In this document: positions 38,172-54,452 of the stretch, piece by piece
How positions within the stretch are numbered: position 1 is the first letter of the stretch
How the letters are laid out: each line of letters starts with the position of its first letter
Assembly: GCF_000307225.1 (NCBI RefSeq)
Contig: NZ_HE978617.1
Coordinates: forward strand, 564,206 to 619,050
DNA: 54,845 bases
Direction of reading: 5' to 3'
Origin: Anaerococcus vaginalis
GTDB taxonomy: Bacteria; Bacillota; Clostridia; Tissierellales; Peptoniphilaceae
Notes under the pieces: generated by a model
Told to the model about the DNA's origin: nothing
Database searches by the model: none
Seen by the model: the letters and a program-made list of their open reading frames with translations, nothing else
Made by a program: the position numbers and the translations under genes

Positions 38172-38200
38172 TTGACAAAAACATAAATATAAACTATAAT
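38172..38200 (+). promoter_or_regulatory. oppA promoter, full consensus
   Basis: TTGACA (38172-38177), 17 bp, TATAAT (38195-38200), 37 bp before the oppA start. A perfect sigma-A promoter, suggesting high expression. Confidence 0.88.
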
Positions 38201-38237: not shown

Positions 38238-40358
38238 ATGAATTTTAAAAAAGTTTTCTCACAAGCTTTTGCACTTGGCTTAGTTTTAACTCTTACTGCT
38301 TGTGGCGGTAGTGGAAACAAAGACAACAATGGATCAGCTGGAGATAATAATGCTAGTAACGAAGAAGCTAAGGAAGAATTTAAAAAACAAACTAATGATA
38401 ACACACTTGTATTGGGTGTTGATTCACTTGGTGGAGAATTTATCCAAGGCTTTAACAACAGCGCAAACGATGTAAGAGCTAGAGAATTTATGGGTATCCA
38501 AGGTTCTGTAGGTTATGATACTTATGTTAAGGATAAAAGTGGAATATATGTAGCAAACAAGACTGTTCTTGATGGAGATCCTCAATCAAAAGAAAATGAA
38601 GATGGAACAAAGACTATCACCTTCAAAATTAAAAAAGATCTCAAATGGTCAGATGGCAAACCAGTAACAGCTGATGATTATTTATTTACAAAACTTTTGC
38701 ACTCACCACAAGATTATTCTCTTATAACTGGATCTACAGAAATTGGTGGAGATACTTTTAAAGGTTACAATGAATTTAGAGAAGGAAAAACTAAAGAATT
38801 TGAAGGTGTTAAGAAAATTGACGATCACACATTCGAAGTAACAGTTTCTAAAGATTTTGTACCATATTATGAAGAAGATGCTATAAAAGCAATTAATCCA
38901 AGACCAATTCATTATATAGCTCCAAACTTAAAAGTTGAAGGATCTAAATTTGCTATTAAAGATGGATATAAGGTATCTGATGATGATAAAAAAGCCTTTG
39001 TCCAATCAATCGATAAGCAAATCGAAACAGAAAATTCTTCTTATAAAGAAGAAGTAAAAGCAGCTGGTAAAGAAGATCCAGATGATAAAAAAGCTCACGA
39101 AGAAAAAGTAAAAGCTCTTGAAGAAAAGAAAAAAGCTGCTGAAAATGGAAAAGATATAGATCCAACAGAATTACTTGTTGAACAAGCTATGCTTTTTGAT
39201 GCTAACGAATATAGAAAAGCACCAAAAGTAACATGTGGACCTTATAAATTTGTTTCATTTGAAAATAATATGGTAAAAATGGAACTTAACGATCAATATG
39301 CAGGAGATTTTGAAGGCCACAAAGCTACAATTCCAAATGTAATTATCCAAGCAGTAAACCCAGAAATTTCTGTAGACCTTGTTAAAAATGGAGATATAGA
39401 TATTTTTGAAGGAGAAATGAATGGCTCAAGAATTTCTCAAATAAGAAAAGCTGCTGATGAAAAGAAATTACAATATGTATCATACGACAGAAATGGTTAT
39501 GGTTGCTTGAAATTCTTAAATGATAGAGGAGCAACAAAATATAAAGAAGTAAGACAAGCTATAGCTTTCTTGATGGATAGAAATGACTTCGTACAAAACT
39601 TTGCAGGTGGATATGCAGTAGTAACAAACGGAATGTATGGTTCAAGCCAATGGCTATACAAAGAAAGAGGAGCTGATATAGAAGCTAAACTTACAAACTA
39701 TACATTAAACGTTGATGAAGCTAATAAGAGATTAGATAAAACACCATACAAATTCGAAAAAGATGGAAAAACTCCTTGGGATGCTAAAAAAGCAGCAGAA
39801 GAATACAAAAATAATGCTGAAAAATTTGATTATTATAGATACGATGAAAATGGAAAGAAATTGCAAGTAAACCAATTTGGTGCAAAAGAATCAGAAATAA
39901 CAACACTTCTTTCAAACCAATTGCCAGACAATGCAAAACAAGCAGGACTTGAATATAACGTTCAAGCAGGAGATTTCAATACACTTCTAAACTATATGAG
40001 AAATCCTAAAGAAGGAGATAAGGCTGAATATACAGCATTCAATATGGGACTTGAATTTGGAACACCATTTGATCCATTCTACCAATACAACAGCAAAGGA
40101 AATGATAATACAACAAAAACAAATGATCCACAAGCTGATAAAATTACAGAAGAATTAAGAAGAACAAAACCTGGCGATAAAGAAACTTACCTAAATAAAT
40201 GGGAAGAATTCCAAAAATGGTACAATGATTACCTACCAGAGATTCCACTTTATTCTAACCAAATCCACTCATCAGCATCAACAAGAGTTAAAGGATTTGA
40301 AGGCTTAACACCAGAATGGCCAACATCATTCCAAATCAATCAAATGAGCCTTAAATAA
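38238..40358 (+). CDS. oppA: Oligopeptide-binding lipoprotein OppA with charged insertion
   Basis: 706 residues from ATG 38238, preceded by GAGGAGAGAAGG. Signal peptide with lipobox LTAC. Family 5 solute-binding protein: KKDLKWSDGKPVTADDYLF marks the conserved motif. It is larger than the usual 540. A charged helical stretch (about residues 250-310; 38985-39165), rich in Lys/Glu/Asp, sits before the APKVTCGPYKFV core, and a second extra region lies near residues 490-550. Captures peptides on the cell surface for OppBCDF. Monocistronic, followed by a terminator. Confidence 0.93.
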   Translation: MNFKKVFSQAFALGLVLTLTACGGSGNKDNNGSAGDNNASNEEAKEEFKKQTNDNTLVLGVDSLGGEFIQGFNNSANDVRAREFMGIQGSVGYDTYVKDKSGIYVANKTVLDGDPQSKENEDGTKTITFKIKKDLKWSDGKPVTADDYLFTKLLHSPQDYSLITGSTEIGGDTFKGYNEFREGKTKEFEGVKKIDDHTFEVTVSKDFVPYYEEDAIKAINPRPIHYIAPNLKVEGSKFAIKDGYKVSDDDKKAFVQSIDKQIETENSSYKEEVKAAGKEDPDDKKAHEEKVKALEEKKKAAENGKDIDPTELLVEQAMLFDANEYRKAPKVTCGPYKFVSFENNMVKMELNDQYAGDFEGHKATIPNVIIQAVNPEISVDLVKNGDIDIFEGEMNGSRISQIRKAADEKKLQYVSYDRNGYGCLKFLNDRGATKYKEVRQAIAFLMDRNDFVQNFAGGYAVVTNGMYGSSQWLYKERGADIEAKLTNYTLNVDEANKRLDKTPYKFEKDGKTPWDAKKAAEEYKNNAEKFDYYRYDENGKKLQVNQFGAKESEITTLLSNQLPDNAKQAGLEYNVQAGDFNTLLNYMRNPKEGDKAEYTAFNMGLEFGTPFDPFYQYNSKGNDNTTKTNDPQADKITEELRRTKPGDKETYLNKWEEFQKWYNDYLPEIPLYSNQIHSSASTRVKGFEGLTPEWPTSFQINQMSLK

Positions 40359-40620: not shown

Positions 40621-40650
40621 TTGACAAAAGTGGGCTTTTATATTAATATT
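40621..40650 (+). promoter_or_regulatory. Promoter for oppBCDF
   Basis: TTGACA (40621-40626), 17 bp, TAATAT. It leaves a leader of about 175 nt before oppB. The DNA 40420-40620 shows no gene. Confidence 0.55.
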
Positions 40651-40758: not shown

Positions 40759-40826
40759 TTATATTATTTATTCTTTATTAAATAAATTTAAAGGGTAAAT
40801 TTTAAAAAAATAAGGAAGGGATGTAT

Positions 40827-41789
40827 ATGTTAAAATACATAGTAAAAAGAATCATTAATTTGATTCCTGTAGCCATAATAATTTCTATTTTGGTTTTTGT
40901 ACTTTCTAAATCTATGCCAGGTGATCCTGTTTTAGCTATGATGCCAAAAGATGGAAGAATGACCAAGGCCCAACAAGAACAAATGTATAAAAACCTTGAA
41001 AAACGTTATGGTTATGACAAATCGTTACCAGAACAATATTTTATGTGGATGGGAAGAAGTTTGAAGGGAGATTTTGGTGAATCTACTCAATCTAAAAGAC
41101 CTGTAAAGGAATATCTTTCTGAACCACTTAGAAACACAATTTTACTTAATATTGGTTCAACCTTTATTTCTTTTTTGCTTTCGGTTCTCATAGGAATTAG
41201 ATCTGCCGTTCATAAGGGAGGACCTTTCGATAAATTCTTTCAGGTATTTACCATAGTCGGTATTTCTTTGCCTACATTTTTTATAGGTTTATTTTTTATA
41301 TTTTTATTTGCCTTTAGGCTAGGATGGTTACCTGCTAATGGTATGCCTAGAAATAATACTTTTGGTGAATGGATTAAATATTTAATTTTACCTACTTTAA
41401 CTTTAACTGTTGGTTCTATGGCATCTATTTCTAGGTATGTAAGAAATTCTATGCTAGATTCTCTAAATGAAGATTATATTAGGACAGCAAGAGCCAAGGG
41501 TTTAAAGGAAAAAACTGTAATTTATTCTCATGCTTTTAGAAATGCCCTAATACCGGTTGTAACTGCTATGACTTGGGCAATTCTTTCTATGTTTTCAGGT
41601 TCTGCTATAACTGAAACTATCTTTGCTTATAGGGGAATTGGAAATATACTTATAAAATCTGTTTTAGCTCAAGATTATAATGTTATTCTTGCATTAACAA
41701 TGTTTTATGCACTTTTAACTCTTCTTGGAAACTTGGTTATGGATATAGCTTATGCTCTTGTAGATCCTAGAGTAAAATTGGAGGCTTAA
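40827..41789 (+). CDS. oppB: Oligopeptide ABC transporter permease OppB
   Basis: 320 residues from ATG 40827, chosen because GGAAGG lies 7 nt before it; an ATG at 40821 is too close. Six membrane helices: about 8-28, then five between 100 and 310. The cytoplasmic EAA loop reads RTARAKGLKEKTVIYSHAFRNALIPV. Normal length with no insertions, in contrast to OppC and OppF. Ends 1 bp before oppC. Confidence 0.95.
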   Translation: MLKYIVKRIINLIPVAIIISILVFVLSKSMPGDPVLAMMPKDGRMTKAQQEQMYKNLEKRYGYDKSLPEQYFMWMGRSLKGDFGESTQSKRPVKEYLSEPLRNTILLNIGSTFISFLLSVLIGIRSAVHKGGPFDKFFQVFTIVGISLPTFFIGLFFIFLFAFRLGWLPANGMPRNNTFGEWIKYLILPTLTLTVGSMASISRYVRNSMLDSLNEDYIRTARAKGLKEKTVIYSHAFRNALIPVVTAMTWAILSMFSGSAITETIFAYRGIGNILIKSVLAQDYNVILALTMFYALLTLLGNLVMDIAYALVDPRVKLEA

Positions 41790-41790
41790 T

Positions 41791-43674
41791 ATGAAAGATG
41801 AATTAAAAAAATCATTCAAATCTTTTGGTAGATTAGTTTTTTCCATGTTTACTTTTGGAACTAATGCAAATGATGTAGAAAAAGACTTAATAGATAATGA
41901 AAATGAATCATTAAAAGAAGATGCTATTACTTCTCCTGGGAAAATGGCTGTAAAAAATTATTTTAGAAATCCTTTAGGTGTTATAGGTTTAGTTTGGTTA
42001 ATCGGAATTATCTTAGTTGTATTTATAGGATCTGCTATTATTCCTTTTAATCCTTACCAATCTGAGGGAAATCTTATAAATGTATCTCCAGGTTCAGGCT
42101 ATATGAAATATCCTTCTAAGATGGAAAAAGAGGGAGTTGAGAAAATTTCTGTAGGAAATACTTTTGGTGTTGGTCTAACTAAGGAGAAAAATTTCTATTT
42201 TTGGGGCAAAAATAACGAAGATAATGTTATGAAAATGCCTGAAGATATAAAGGAAAAACTTAAAGGCAAAAAAATAAAAGATGTTGCTGCTGGTGATAGG
42301 CATATTCTTGTTGCAACTGAAGACAACGAAGTTTATGGTTGGGGTAATGATTCTTTCCAACAAACAAAACTTCCACCAATGCAAGAAAGTCAAATAAAAC
42401 AAGAAGGCATCAAAAAACTTGGTGGTGGAGTTCAATATTCTGTTGTTTTGACTGAAAAAAATAATATATATGTTTGGGGTTCTACAATGAACTCAAGACT
42501 TGATCTTATTCCAAAAGAAGTTAAAGGAAAAGTTGTAGATTTTGATACAAGTGGTTCAAATATTCTCGCTGTATTAAAAGATGGATCTACAAAACTTCTC
42601 GGTGTAAGAGGGGCTGAGGTTGATGTTGGAGCACCAGATGAAATTAAAAATAATAAGGTGAAAATTTCTAAGGTTGCTTTAACTTCAAAATCTGCGGCAG
42701 CCCTTGATGAAAATGGAAAACTTTATGTTTGGGGACCTTCTAGGGATAATTTATCTGGAAAAAATGTTCCAAAATTTAAAGGAAAAGTTAAGGATATAGT
42801 TGCAGGAACAAATCATTTTACTGCCCTTGATGAAGATGGAAAAATTTATGCTTGGGGAAATAATGTTTATGGTGAAGCAAATGCTCCATCTGGAAAATAT
42901 GAAAAAATATTTGCTGGATATTTTAATAATTATGCTGTAAGTAAAGAAAATAAAATTGATACTTGGGGTCTTAAAGGATTTAGATTTGGATCAGATGACC
43001 AAGGTCGTGATATTTTCACAAGATTAATTCATGGTGGAAAAATGACCATAGTTATTTCCTTTGTATCAGTTATTATACAAGTTGTGCTTGGTGTAATTAT
43101 TGGTATGGTTTCAGGTTATGCTGGTGGAAAAGTCGACAATGTTTTGATGAGAATTACAGAAATTGTTCAATCTTTCCCATTTTATCCACTTATTATTACA
43201 CTTTCTGCCCTTCTTCCTGTAAATACTAGTCAAAATACAAGACTTATGATGATTATGGTTTTGCTTGGAGTTATTGGATGGACAGGAATTGCAAGGCTTG
43301 TTCGTGGACAAATTTTAGCTGAAAGAGAAAGAGATTATGTAATAGCTGCAAGGGCACTTGGTGTTACAAATTCATCAATTCTTGTAAGACATATTCTACC
43401 AAATATTCTTTCAATAATAATTGTAAATGCGACTCTTGGTTTTGCAGGAAACCTCCTTACAGAAGCAGGTTTATCATTTTTAGGTTTTGGTGTTCAAGAG
43501 CCAATGCCATCATGGGGAAATATGATGACAAGTGCCCAATCATCAGATGTAATTAATATTTACTGGTGGAGATGGGTAATTCCAGCTATTGCAGTATTTT
43601 CAGCAGCATTTTCAGTAAACTTGATAGGAGACGCCCTAAGAGATGCAATAGATCCAAGGTCAAATGAGAGATAG
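41791..43674 (+). CDS. oppC: Oligopeptide permease OppC with inserted seven-repeat RCC1-like propeller
   Basis: 627 residues, about twice the usual 300. After a helix at 60-84 ending PFNPYQ, where normal OppC soon continues to FGTDxxGRD, a block of about 300 residues (95-397) is inserted. It has seven RCC1-type repeats, near 116, 160, 206, 247, 290, 332 and 369, each with a core like VxAGxxHxxAL...GxxYxWG (WG at 138, 184, 229, 314, 355, 392; the fourth blade is degenerate). Permease sequence resumes with FGSDDQGRDIF, five more helices, and the EAA loop YVIAARALGVTNSSILVRH. Topology puts the propeller outside the cell, facing OppA or peptide. Confidence 0.95.
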   Translation: MKDELKKSFKSFGRLVFSMFTFGTNANDVEKDLIDNENESLKEDAITSPGKMAVKNYFRNPLGVIGLVWLIGIILVVFIGSAIIPFNPYQSEGNLINVSPGSGYMKYPSKMEKEGVEKISVGNTFGVGLTKEKNFYFWGKNNEDNVMKMPEDIKEKLKGKKIKDVAAGDRHILVATEDNEVYGWGNDSFQQTKLPPMQESQIKQEGIKKLGGGVQYSVVLTEKNNIYVWGSTMNSRLDLIPKEVKGKVVDFDTSGSNILAVLKDGSTKLLGVRGAEVDVGAPDEIKNNKVKISKVALTSKSAAALDENGKLYVWGPSRDNLSGKNVPKFKGKVKDIVAGTNHFTALDEDGKIYAWGNNVYGEANAPSGKYEKIFAGYFNNYAVSKENKIDTWGLKGFRFGSDDQGRDIFTRLIHGGKMTIVISFVSVIIQVVLGVIIGMVSGYAGGKVDNVLMRITEIVQSFPFYPLIITLSALLPVNTSQNTRLMMIMVLLGVIGWTGIARLVRGQILAERERDYVIAARALGVTNSSILVRHILPNILSIIIVNATLGFAGNLLTEAGLSFLGFGVQEPMPSWGNMMTSAQSSDVINIYWWRWVIPAIAVFSAAFSVNLIGDALRDAIDPRSNER

Positions 43675-43682
43675 GTGTAAAA

Positions 43683-44687
43683 ATGAAAAATTTACTTGAA
43701 ATAAAAAATCTTCATACCTACTTTGAAACAAGAAGAGGTCAAATCAAAGCAGTAAATGGAGTATCATGTACAATTGAAGAAGGAAAAACTTTGGGCTTGG
43801 TTGGAGAAAGTGGTTCTGGAAAAAGTCAAACGGCTATGAGTATCTTGCAACTTTTTGAACCAAATCAAAAAATCTATGGGGGAGAAATAATTTTTGAAGG
43901 AGAAAAAATTTCTTCATTTAATAGATCTCAAATGGAAAAAATCAGGGGAAATGATATTTCTATGATTTTTCAAGAGCCAATGAGCTCATTGAATCCTGTT
44001 TTTACTGTAGAAAAACAAATTTCGGAAGTTTTAATTCTTCATAAAAAAATGGATAAAAAAGAGGCTGCAAAAAGGGTGGAGGAACTTCTTGCCCAAGTTA
44101 AAATTCCAAATCCTCACGTTGTTGCCAAACAATATCCTTTTGAGCTTTCAGGTGGTATGAATCAAAGAGTTATGATTGCTATGGCACTTGCTTGTGAGCC
44201 AAAATTACTTATAGCAGACGAGCCAACAACAGCTCTTGATGTTACAATCCAAGCTCAAATTTTAAAATTGATGAATGAATTAAAGGAAAAGCAAAACACT
44301 TCAATTTTATTTATAACCCACGACTTGGGAGTAATAAATCAAATGGCAGATGAGGTTGCTGTAATGTATTGTGGACAAATTGTAGAACAATCTCCAGTTG
44401 ATTATATTTTTAAACACAATATTACAAAATACAACCATCCTTACACAATAGCTCTTTTAAATTCTATCCCAGCAATTACAAGTGATAGGAATGAAAGACT
44501 TGATATAATACCAGGATCTGTTCCACATCCACTTAACCTTCCTAGCGGATGTAAATTTGCAGACAGGTGTAAGTATGCTACTGAAAAATGTAGAAAAGAA
44601 ATGCCAGAGCTTGTGTCAGTAAATGAAAATCAAAAAATTAGATGCCACTACCCAAATAGAGAGGAGAGAGAAAATGGAGAACAATAA
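43683..44687 (+). CDS. oppD: Oligopeptide ABC transporter ATPase OppD
   Basis: 334 residues. Walker A GESGSGKS, Q-loop FQEPMSSLNP, signature LSGGMNQRV, Walker B LLIADEPTTALD, and H-loop ITHDLG. The C-terminal Cys-rich region (GCKFADRCKYATEKC) is the iron-sulphur-like motif common in peptide transporters. Its last codons overlap oppF by 14 bp. Unlike its partner OppF it has no insertion. Confidence 0.96.
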   Translation: MKNLLEIKNLHTYFETRRGQIKAVNGVSCTIEEGKTLGLVGESGSGKSQTAMSILQLFEPNQKIYGGEIIFEGEKISSFNRSQMEKIRGNDISMIFQEPMSSLNPVFTVEKQISEVLILHKKMDKKEAAKRVEELLAQVKIPNPHVVAKQYPFELSGGMNQRVMIAMALACEPKLLIADEPTTALDVTIQAQILKLMNELKEKQNTSILFITHDLGVINQMADEVAVMYCGQIVEQSPVDYIFKHNITKYNHPYTIALLNSIPAITSDRNERLDIIPGSVPHPLNLPSGCKFADRCKYATEKCRKEMPELVSVNENQKIRCHYPNREERENGEQ

Positions 44688-46290
44688 TAAAAAGGTCTTA
44701 TTCAAAATAAGAAATCTTAAAAAATATTTTCCAATCAAGAAAAAATCTATCTTTTCTAGGGGAGCCAACGAATATGTCCATGCCAACGAAAATATCTCTA
44801 TAGATATATATGAGGGTGAAACTTTTGGTTTGGTTGGAGAAAGTGGTTGTGGTAAATCTACTTTTGGTAGGACTATTCTTCAAATTTATGAACAAACAGA
44901 AGGAACAACCCTATATTATGGAACAACTTTAGACAAACTTGCCCCAGCCTATATGGGAAAAGATATAAGAGATATTCCAAAAAAATTCCCTTCATATGAT
45001 ACAGAAGTAGGAAAACTTCAAAAAATTTATGATGAGTTAGAAAAAACTGAAGATGAAGAAAAGAAGGCAGAATTAAATGAAGCTGCTATGCATCAAAGAA
45101 GACTTATCCAAGAAAAATATGAAAATATGATGAGAATTGCTGGAGGACTTCTTGCAAGCGATAATTTATCGGAAATTTCTTCAATTCTTGATGATTATTA
45201 CAAAAAAATCAAGGAAAGATCTAAAGTTTTGTTAGATATCAAAAAAATTGAAGAAAAAGACCAAGTGAGAATTAGGGATAAAAAAGAATTAAAAGATGCC
45301 ATTTTAAATGATCCAAAATACAAGGAACTTTTGAGTAAAAAAGAAAAACTCGACAAGGAAGTTTTGGAAAAAGATCAAAAAATAAGGGCGAAAAAAGAAG
45401 AATTAAAAGCAAAAGAAGATTTTGAAAAATTTGAAAGTTTTCTTGATGATGGAATTGACCTTTCAAGACTTGCAAATGAAGAAATGAGAGAGCTTAGAAA
45501 AGATCTTCAAATAATTTTCCAAGATCCTTATGGTTCTTTGGATACAAAAATGACGGTTGGAAATATAATTGGAGAAGGAGTTTTGGGCCACGAACTTTTC
45601 AAATCAAGAAGTGAAGCAGGCTATAACGAATATATCCAAGATATAATGAACCAATGTGGACTTGCTCCATATTTTATTCACAGGTATCCTCACCAATTTT
45701 CTGGTGGACAAAGACAAAGAATTGGAATTGCTAGAGCACTTGCCCTAAATCCAAGTTTTATTGTTTGTGATGAGGCAGTATCAGCCCTTGATGTTTCAAT
45801 CCAATCACAAATTATAAATTTATTACAAGATTTAAAAACAGATTTAAACCTAACTTATTTATTTATAACTCATGACCTTTCAGTTGTAAAATATATTTCT
45901 GATAGGATTGGAGTAATGTATTTGGGAGTTATGGTTGAACTTTCAGATTCAGATAGGATTTTCAAAAATCCACAACATCCTTACACAAAGGCACTCTTGC
46001 AAGCAATACCAAGAACTGACGTTGATAAGGGACAAGAATTACAAACAATTGATGGAGATATTCCATCAGCAGTAAGGCCACCAAAAGGTTGTCGTTTCCA
46101 CACAAGATGTAAATATTGTATGGATATTTGTAAACAATTTGAGCCAGAGCTTAAAGAAGTTGAAGCTGGTCATTTTGTAGCTTGTCATTTGATGGATGTT
46201 TCAGAAGAAACAAAAATGAAAGCCTTTGAAAAAAACGAAGAAGAAAGACTAAAAAGAGAACACGAATTAGCCAAGGAAGCTAATCTATGA
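44674..46290 (+). CDS. oppF: Oligopeptide ABC transporter ATPase OppF with charged helical insertion
   Basis: 538 residues against about 320 normally. Start ATG 44674 (MENNNKKVL) overlaps oppD. Walker A GESGCGKS lies at 55-62, but the Q-loop FQDPYGSLD comes only at 282-290. In between, about residues 85-265 are extra: Lys/Glu-rich helices with coiled-coil-like character (for example LLSKKEKLDKEVLEKDQK). Signature FSGGQRQR, Walker B FIVCDEAVSALD, H-loop ITHDLS and the C-terminal Cys-rich motif are intact, so ATPase function is likely kept. The insertion would project from the cytoplasmic face. Confidence 0.95.
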   Translation: MENNNKKVLFKIRNLKKYFPIKKKSIFSRGANEYVHANENISIDIYEGETFGLVGESGCGKSTFGRTILQIYEQTEGTTLYYGTTLDKLAPAYMGKDIRDIPKKFPSYDTEVGKLQKIYDELEKTEDEEKKAELNEAAMHQRRLIQEKYENMMRIAGGLLASDNLSEISSILDDYYKKIKERSKVLLDIKKIEEKDQVRIRDKKELKDAILNDPKYKELLSKKEKLDKEVLEKDQKIRAKKEELKAKEDFEKFESFLDDGIDLSRLANEEMRELRKDLQIIFQDPYGSLDTKMTVGNIIGEGVLGHELFKSRSEAGYNEYIQDIMNQCGLAPYFIHRYPHQFSGGQRQRIGIARALALNPSFIVCDEAVSALDVSIQSQIINLLQDLKTDLNLTYLFITHDLSVVKYISDRIGVMYLGVMVELSDSDRIFKNPQHPYTKALLQAIPRTDVDKGQELQTIDGDIPSAVRPPKGCRFHTRCKYCMDICKQFEPELKEVEAGHFVACHLMDVSEETKMKAFEKNEEERLKREHELAKEANL

Positions 46291-52667: not shown

Positions 52668-54452
52668 ATGGATAGAAAAGATATAGACAAGTCCCTAAAA
52701 TGGGACACAGAAAAAATTTATAAGACAGACGAAGACTTTTATAAAGACGTAGAAGAAGTAAAAAAACTACTAGAAAAAACCAAGACATATAAAGGAAAGA
52801 TTTTACAATCAGCCAATAGCCTTTATGACTTTTTAAAAACAAGCGAAAAATTAGAAAGAAAATTTTTCAAACTTAGCGTATATGCTTCATTAAAATCTGA
52901 CGAAGATACAAGAGTAGCAAAATACCAAGAAATGTCAAAAGTTGGAGATAATTTATTTGCAGAAATAGCAAAAGAACTTTCCTTTATAACACCAGAAATT
53001 TTGTCAGAAGATTACGAAAAAGTACAAGCATATATAAAAGAAAAAGAAGAATTAGAAATTTATGCACACTATTTCGAAGACTTATTTAGAAATAAAGAAC
53101 ATACTCTTGGAGAAAATGAAGAAAAAATTATAGCATCATTTTCAAAATTATCCCAAAACCCACAAAACACCTATATGATTTTTTCAAACGCCGACCTAAA
53201 ATTTCCAAAAGTAAAAAAAGGCGACGAAGAAATCCAAATAACAGACGCAAACTTCACAAACCTAGAACTAGATTCAAATCGAAAGTTTAGAAAAGAAGTC
53301 TACGAAAAATATTATAAAGTTTACAAGCAATTCGAAAACACAGCAGCCTCCCTTCTTGACGGAGAGATGACAGCAAACAATACAATAGCAAATTTAAAAA
53401 AATTCGATTCAGCAAGAAAGATGAGTCTTTTTGCAAACAATATTGACGAAAAAGTTTACGATAATCTAATAGAAGTAATCCACGATAATATAAAAATTCA
53501 CAGAGACTACACTAGCCTAAGAAAAAAAGTTTTAGGACTTGATGATTTAGGATTTTACGATATTTACCTACCATTGGTAGAAGATTACAACAAAACTTAT
53601 ACATTTGACGAGGCAAAAGAATTAATCCTAAAAGCCCTAGCTCCACTCGGAGAAGACTACATCAAAAAAGCAAGAGAAGGCTTTGACGATAGGTGGTTTG
53701 ATGTAATGGAAAACGAAGGAAAAAGATCAGGAGGATATTCATCTGGATCCTACGATACAGAACCATACATCTTATTAAACTATAATGATTCCCTAGACTC
53801 ACTTTTCACAACAGCTCATGAGCTTGGACATTCCATGCACTCCTATTACACAAGAAAAACCCAACCATATATATACGGAGACTATTCAATATTTTTGGCA
53901 GAAATAGCATCAACAACAAACGAGCTTTTATTATTAAATTATATGATAGAACATGCCAAAGACGAAAAAGAAAAAGCCTATTTACTAAACCATTACGTAA
54001 ATTCATTTAAGTCAACCGTATTTAGACAAACAATGTTTGCGGAATTTGAACTAGAGGCAAATAAACTTGTAGAAAATTCAATTCCAGTAACAGCAGAAAA
54101 ATTAAACCAAATCTACCACGACCTAAACGTAGATTACTTTGGAGAAGATATAGAAGTAGACAAATATATATCAACAGAATGGGCAAGAATCCCACACTTT
54201 TATTTGTTCTACTACGTCTTCCAATACGCAACAGGATTCTCATCAGCAGTAAGCCTATCAGAAAAAATCCTCCATGGAGACAAAAAAGATTTAGAAAAGT
54301 ACCTTAATTTCCTAAAAGCAGGAAAAAGCAAATATCCAATAGAAGTATTAAAAGATGCAGGAGTAGATATGACAAAAAAAGATTCACTCCAAAAAGCAAT
54401 GGATGCTTGCAAAGAAAAATTAGAAGAATTAAAAAAAGCATTAGAAAAATAA
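52668..54452 (+). CDS. pepF: Oligoendopeptidase F
   Basis: 594 residues of the M3B family. Zinc site HELGHSMHSYY, with the downstream Glu in FLAEIASTTNE. It cuts short cytoplasmic peptides, fitting downstream use of peptides imported by the Opp system 8 kb upstream. RBS AAGGAG before ATG 52668. Strong terminator after the stop. Confidence 0.96.
   Translation: MDRKDIDKSLKWDTEKIYKTDEDFYKDVEEVKKLLEKTKTYKGKILQSANSLYDFLKTSEKLERKFFKLSVYASLKSDEDTRVAKYQEMSKVGDNLFAEIAKELSFITPEILSEDYEKVQAYIKEKEELEIYAHYFEDLFRNKEHTLGENEEKIIASFSKLSQNPQNTYMIFSNADLKFPKVKKGDEEIQITDANFTNLELDSNRKFRKEVYEKYYKVYKQFENTAASLLDGEMTANNTIANLKKFDSARKMSLFANNIDEKVYDNLIEVIHDNIKIHRDYTSLRKKVLGLDDLGFYDIYLPLVEDYNKTYTFDEAKELILKALAPLGEDYIKKAREGFDDRWFDVMENEGKRSGGYSSGSYDTEPYILLNYNDSLDSLFTTAHELGHSMHSYYTRKTQPYIYGDYSIFLAEIASTTNELLLLNYMIEHAKDEKEKAYLLNHYVNSFKSTVFRQTMFAEFELEANKLVENSIPVTAEKLNQIYHDLNVDYFGEDIEVDKYISTEWARIPHFYLFYYVFQYATGFSSAVSLSEKILHGDKKDLEKYLNFLKAGKSKYPIEVLKDAGVDMTKKDSLQKAMDACKEKLEELKKALEK

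Follow-up and report, generated by a model that had tools for sequence, protein, structure and literature searches.

The Opp/Dpp importers are textbook machines whose differences are considered to lie chiefly in the binding protein, and propellers of the RCC1/BLIP-II group are equally well known. This report concerns the OppC permease of an oppABCDF operon, which is located in a 54,845-nucleotide stretch of the Anaerococcus vaginalis genome (the window; assembly GCF_000307225.1, contig NZ_HE978617.1, positions 564,206 to 619,050) and is predicted to carry a propeller of this group between its first two transmembrane helices (TM1 and TM2). The MalF-P2 domain of the MalFGK2E importer differs from the OppC propeller in its fold and in the loop that it occupies. 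It is likewise a folded domain on the periplasmic side of a type I importer, borne by a single permease subunit, and it is a precedent for a permease domain in direct contact with the binding protein, here MalE (excerpts of PMC3150292). According to excerpts of PMC12136057, the permease-ATPase pairs of E. coli DppABCDF are DppB with DppD and DppC with DppF. Both permeases have a periplasmic TM1-TM2 region and are capped by DppA, whose cleft is filled by a scoop motif located between TM1 and TM2 of DppB; TM1 itself and the TM1-TM2 region are strikingly different between DppB and DppC. Among the E. coli DppABCDF and OppBCDF entries (8z1v-8z21; excerpts of PMC12136057), the OppC chain of 278 residues and the OppF chain of 328 have neither a propeller nor an ATPase insertion; almost their full length aligns to the window proteins once the inserts of the latter are set aside. 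BLIP-II (1jtd, 3qi0) is a free secreted inhibitor, whereas the window propeller is inserted in a permease loop, and the likeness is one of fold, which carries no information on beta-lactamase as a target. The RCC1-like domains of RCC1, UVR8, HERC and CR4 are eukaryotic and occur in other contexts, and most of their chains have 325-450 residues, compared with about 270 in BLIP-II. According to excerpts of PMC9218822, RCC1 is a nuclear interactor and BLIP-II a secreted binder; no word that starts with transporter or permease occurs in that paper.

The propeller domain of OppC

The oppC gene (41791..43674, + strand, as are all features given below) is an uninterrupted reading frame of 627 amino acids. 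Pfam places OppC_N at residues 48-94 (35.0 bits, cut-off 23.9), a region that includes TM1 (residues 61-83, 41971..42039; a single helix in the AlphaFold2 (AF2) model), and BPD_transp_1 at residues 434-623 (104.5 bits, cut-off 26.4). The permease core starts at GSDDQGRD and runs to the C terminus (residues 400-627, 42988..43671), and in a phmmer comparison to solved structures residues 396-624 matched E. coli OppC (6e-50), while the middle of the protein matched HERC2, UVR8, RCC1 and BLIP-II. With both Pfam domains above their cut-offs and the gene inside an oppABCDF operon, the product is, as judged by its domains, an OppC-type permease, though it is not filed as Opp4C: equivalog NF045476 was the best of 26 families, aligned to residues 395-623 only and, at 307.4 bits, stayed below its cut-off of 350. 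A preliminary description of this DNA had noted about 300 extra residues between the first helix and FGSDDQGRD. The block was located at residues ~92-396 (42064..42978, linkers included), within a few bases of where it had been placed.

The same description had read the block as seven repeats of the RCC1 pattern, one of them degenerate, and this reading held. Six repeats end in xWG, with WG at residues 138-139, 184-185, 229-230, 314-315, 355-356 and 392-393, and the AF2 model of the insert has seven groups of three strands. These correspond to blade 1 (residues 116-139, 42136..42207), blade 2 (162-185, 42274..42345), blade 3 (207-230, 42409..42480), blade 4 (248-270, 42532..42600), blade 5 (292-314, 42664..42732), blade 6 (333-356, 42787..42858) and blade 7 (370-392, 42898..42966). 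The degenerate repeat (residues 248-271) underlies blade 4 and ends in LLG; tryptophan was absent from this position in all 19 rows of the insert alignment, and the terminal G271 was conserved in 95% of the weighted sequences. RCC1_2 (PF13540) reached 129.9 bits against a cut-off of 22 (E 1.7e-38), with five stretches passing individually. WD40_RLD scored 134, under its cut-off of 150. The RCC1 model proposed earlier for a check, PF00415, fitted the repeats less well than PF13540; it passed in the protein scan as a sum (27.5 bits, cut-off 21.7). That no single stretch passed by itself counts against the assignment; the genome-level search with PF00415 gave no match in this genome, and equally none in 14 control genomes, so it is uninformative. 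RCC1_2 had no match elsewhere in the window's genome.

In the comparison of folds against the Protein Data Bank, OppC residues 96-384 aligned to BLIP-II over 262 residues at 2.5 Å, ahead of RCC1 itself, and the blades were of the compact three-strand kind. The structure models, which are of single chains, predict a closed ring of seven blades, and the RCC1-type propeller that had been suggested is refined to a BLIP-II-like one. Taken with the Pfam matches to the superfamily, the models make it almost certain that OppC carries a full RCC1/BLIP-II-type seven-bladed propeller between TM1 and TM2. The propeller probably lies outside the cell, as had also been claimed, because the loop is external by homology to DppC (excerpts of PMC12136057). 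The scarcity of cysteine was considered as a sign of outside location and decides nothing: the insert has none in the window OppC and in 62 of 86 inserts, and the permease core is equally poor (65 of 19612). A search of the open-licence literature by titles and the starts of abstracts, with subscription papers and preprints outside it, found no paper on an RCC1-type propeller in OppC; as firmly as such a search allows, this points to an undescribed architecture, which domain databases may list without comment.

Distribution and descent of the propeller permeases

A chimeric assembly, which the preliminary description had named as what would overturn it, and an oddity of this window were rejected because independent genomes hold the same gene with an open frame. 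In a scan of titled genomes with six short peptide patterns, which reaches close relatives only, the frame was open over 628-650 amino acids in nine loci (seven Anaerococcus species and two Peptoniphilaceae metagenome-assembled genomes); nine further loci, from other phyla, held ordinary OppC-type permeases. The insertion was sought in related genera, as had been proposed, and was found in 10 of the 39 genera of the family sample (44/130 genomes), including 31/31 genomes of the window's genus among the matches listed. None of the 45 insert matches of this sample contained a stop, and their frames had 605-670 amino acids. The E-values rule out a chance match, as do full-length relatives with identities of 29-95%. 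Wider searches used a profile of 19 inserts. In the order, 82/249 genomes had some match, and in 63/249 the match was full-length and lay in a frame of OppC size. The class sample gave matches in 132/391 genomes, of which, among the matches listed, 17 were propeller OppCs, 15 of them full; the inserts of G463 and G262 matched in two pieces, and both were read as OppC. The phylum sample gave matches in 96/398 genomes (14 full among the matches listed), one of which, in G917, lies in a 555-amino-acid frame near a contig start and was classed by its match alone. From the order, class and phylum samples together, propeller OppCs occur in at least 85 distinct genomes with at least 17 family codes, all in one phylum. 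The remaining profile matches were partial and mostly in frames unlike OppC in size, and L138, L139 and L141, among the partial matches fetched, are free RCC1 proteins. RCC1_2 had no match in the 14 control genomes, which, with the short-pattern scan, make up the searches outside the window's phylum. The insert preceded the G(S/T)D..G.D motif in 50/50 loci of one set and in 36/36 OppCs of another.

Several variants were encountered among these loci. One genome has two tandem propeller-type opp operons, both with the OppF insertion described below (L116, G187:C1, 1872-16948). The OppCs of L125 (G463; 696 amino acids) and L126 (G262; 658 amino acids) have seven blades by eye, lengthened by extra loops; the one that separates blades 2 and 3 in L125 is acidic and of low complexity. 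Their OppA frames are long too. In the A. porci record L009 (3692-4656), the oppB frame has 284 amino acids, compared with about 320 in relatives, and stops 110 bases before oppC, which, to judge from the frame, is a frameshift or sequence error. In-frame TAG codons in six short OppC paralogues were dismissed as ordinary, the TAG being the gene's own stop in both of the two that were read.

In a tree of the permease core, from which the insert was excluded (83 rows, 'quick' method, with long branches among the short-OppC rows), 53 propeller rows lay on one side of a single branch (SH-aLRT 99), opposite 30 short OppCs. The propeller-bearing permeases are, on this tree, one clade, with essentially one origin that has been kept ever since. 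When the core was searched across the family, the matches listed that were 51% or more identical to the window lay in frames of at least 605 amino acids, with the exception of G062 and G063 (52% core identity, frames of 347 and 340); G062 (L144) also lacks the OppF insertion, having 108 residues from Walker A to LSGGQ, and the second ATPase of G063 (L145) was unreadable. A recent horizontal insertion was ruled out by the GC content (0.326 in the insert, 0.354 in the core and 0.296 in the window) and by the presence of one clade over many families. A domain captured once and kept as a passive spacer or stabiliser, with no specific binding role, would agree with the single origin and with the short-OppC importers that do without it. 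This seems very improbable: seven blades were counted by eye in eight insert sequences, and the length stayed within 280-306 residues in the 75 of 86 inserts that were measurable (the longer L125 and L126 are evidently among the other 11, which lacked a landmark). The dN/dS values of 0.09-0.29 for the propeller and 0.04-0.17 for the core (seven pairs with the window, dS above 1 in two) are well under 1 and therefore indicate purifying selection on the propeller, which again speaks against a spacer, as does the fact that the propeller was never seen apart from the OppF insertion, except at contig ends or where no ATPase gene is nearby.

The second insertion, in OppF

The second ATPase gene of the operon, oppF (44671..46290), encodes 539 amino acids. 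Walker A and the signature were found by pattern, ABC_tran and oligo_HPY scored above their cut-offs, and the protein was 47% identical over 293 residues to 8z21_D of E. coli OppBCDF, chain D being OppF by chain order. The NCBIfam OppF equivalog NF011659 was the best of 181 families, at 371.5 bits against a cut-off of 540. The distance from Walker A to LSGGQ is 287 residues, compared with 104-111 in short-OppC operons. Residues ~91-264 (44941..45462), between Walker A and the Q-loop, form a predicted helical insertion, which the preliminary description had not mentioned. The AF2 model shows it as five helices, at a confidence that varies by block from 40 to 89; outside it the model matches 8z21_D. 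Sequence comparison of the insertion gave two weak matches among solved structures (E 0.0017 and 0.0058) and nothing better than E 0.11 in Pfam; the fold comparison was filled by ABC ATPases, so it barely probed the insertion. A role in defence was discarded, as PADLOC gave no match for OppC and five generic ATPase-like matches for OppF. The NCBIfam mycoplasma OppD/OppF models match the window OppF as well; the alignment of MMSYN1_0167 (561 positions) spans residues 117-517, insertion included. The long ATPase insertions of mycoplasma Opp may be related to that of OppF, and the mycoplasma OppC model (307 positions) aligns to the window OppC core only (residues 390-624).

Among 66 propeller operons, 58 had two readable ATPases, five the first only and three none; L007/L067 and L008/L049 are apparently the same genes taken twice, and operon counts exceed those of independent genomes. 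The second ATPase had 255-297 residues from Walker A to LSGGQ in 58/58, and the first had 114 in 63/63. Of 21 short-OppC loci, 20 were parsed and the second ATPase was read in 19, all with 104-111 residues (a stricter motif pattern kept five). A profile of the OppF insertion matched 62/249 genomes of the order at E ≤1e-25, all within the 63 propeller genomes; these searches depend on their cut-offs (1e-25 and 1e-20), the weakest accepted matches being 7.4e-26 and 1.1e-26. The remaining propeller genome, G200, has one incomplete ATPase frame after oppC on a 3494-bp contig. Neither insert was found in 186 genomes; one of these, G223, carries part of a propeller, cut off by the end of its contig. 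In the class sample, the OppF insertion occurred in 18/391 genomes, namely the 17 propeller genomes and G347, which has a weak propeller match (2e-7) and a 3742-bp contig that ends within ~560 bases of the OppF match. The Fisher value for co-occurrence, 2e-58, ignores kinship. True separation was seen once, in an extra permease set of G021 with no adjacent ATPase genes; the other operon of this genome has a long OppF. The propeller and the OppF insertion thus occur together and, from these gene comparisons, define a conserved OppABCDF variant.

The propeller and its possible partners

We propose, with a rough probability of 0.43, that the propeller serves the cognate OppA lipoprotein as a docking and regulatory platform on the extracytoplasmic side. 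Much as MalF-P2 contacts MalE, it would hold or select loaded OppA and help to close off the outward cavity, and the OppF insertion would tune the ATPase on the same half of the transporter from inside. By homology to Dpp, the propeller would occupy the OppC position that matches the scoop of DppB (and presumably of OppB), and would hence lie beside docked OppA; both insertions would fall on one half because, from the Dpp structures, OppF is the ATPase that contacts OppC. The best fold match, BLIP-II, is a secreted protein-binding propeller (excerpts of PMC9218822) and was counted in favour of docking, as were the purifying selection on the propeller and its co-occurrence with the OppF insertion. 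The extra set of G021 (L063, G021:C6, 2712-8314) is ordered oppB-oppC(propeller)-oppA, with no oppD or oppF in the 12.9 kb read, and genes for another lipoprotein and permease follow. It presumably shares the ATPases of the first operon, and its makeup is, weakly, as expected if the propeller works with OppB and OppA. Distance matrices were compared for 44 of the 66 operons, 10 near-duplicates and 12 operons without a gene having been dropped. The partial correlations of the propeller were weak, at 0.30 for OppA (0.25-0.32 leave-one-out), 0.20 for OppB, 0.15 for the OppC core, 0.07 for the OppF insertion, 0.04 for the OppF core and −0.12 for OppD; that of the OppF insertion was largest for OppA (0.33). 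Of the roles offered in the preliminary description, which were reception of OppA, binding of peptides or the wall, and binding of another cell, the evidence leans weakly to OppA as the propeller's partner.

Several points weigh against this proposal. The structural models are of monomers only, so a contact between OppA and the propeller is inferred, and DppB and DppC differ so strikingly in the TM1-TM2 region that the scoop position need not hold for OppC (excerpts of PMC12136057). Short-OppC importers exist without a propeller, one of them as a second Opp system in the window's own genome (L142). The partial correlation is small, and the rapid evolution of both OppA and the propeller (mean distances 1.26 and 1.30) is enough by itself to raise it; at 0.07, a direct link between the propeller and the OppF insertion is not favoured. 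The co-occurrence goes back to essentially one origin and has no independent replicates. The large OppA hairpin is also not common to all propeller operons measured. In the window it is a Lys/Glu-rich, probably helical hairpin at OppA residues ~230-330, before TCGPY. As a common partner of the propeller it was set aside: the landmark distance was 197-250 in one subclade of the family and mostly 129-155 in the others measured, a partial result, as both landmarks were placed in 33/59 propeller OppAs and 2/7 short-OppC OppAs.

The propeller could instead be a receptor for substrate or environment, binding extracellular peptides, proteins or wall or host glycans and feeding or gating the importer. 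We consider this rather unlikely, since OppA is already the peptide receptor and the propeller showed no ligand site: its best-conserved positions are mostly ordinary repeat-consensus G, W and P. It is more doubtful that the propeller's partner is a different protein of the envelope or a secreted one (for instance a protease, peptidase or wall enzyme), bound as BLIP-II binds beta-lactamases, so that the importer stays near a source of peptides. Here the closest fold is BLIP-II, pepF (described below) lies in the window, and a relative of the M3 peptidases was present in 5/65 propeller loci and 0/21 short-OppC loci, a neighbourhood too infrequent to be a rule; against it, no extracellular partner gene recurred beside the operon in the loci read by eye from lists of open reading frames, and M3 enzymes of such type are expected to be cytosolic. 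It also appears improbable that the propeller and the OppF insertion form one transmembrane signal path, making the importer double as a receptor. If this were true, the outer propeller would sense a protein or peptide and set the ATPase via the paired inner insertion.

Like oppC and oppF, the other genes of the five-gene operon are on the + strand of this 2.05-Mb genome, whose nearest titled relatives are Anaerococcus species. The oppA gene (38241..40358) encodes a lipoprotein family-5 peptide-binding protein of 705 amino acids (SBP_bac_5, 2e-35; lipobox read from the sequence) that scores below the cut-off of NCBIfam Opp4A. It is followed by oppB (40821..41789; 322 amino acids; BPD_transp_1, 2.5e-43), and oppD, the first ATPase gene (43683..44687; Pfam), encodes 114 residues from Walker A to LSGGQ and has no insertion. 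A candidate sigma-70-type promoter, TTGACA-17-TATAAT (38172..38200), precedes oppA, assigned by its 12/12 match to the consensus only; a weaker promoter-like site (40621..40649; 10/12 matches) lies in the long oppA-oppB gap, a region no richer in such sites than shuffles. Given both sites, oppBCDF may be expressed separately from oppA. A gene for a PepF-type M3 oligopeptidase (52668-54452; Pfam 8.8e-74) lies 6.4 kb downstream of oppF and would fit a peptide-feeding role.

This importer clade, which occurs in at least 17 family codes of one phylum, appears to have remodelled half of the transporter by adding a large domain outside and another inside; where both were readable, the two were never seen apart, save in one orphan permease set. 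It would allow a direct test of how outer importer domains control the docking of the binding protein and the use of ATP. For Anaerococcus and other Peptoniphilaceae, the propeller and the long OppF may together serve as a marker for a distinct class of importers.
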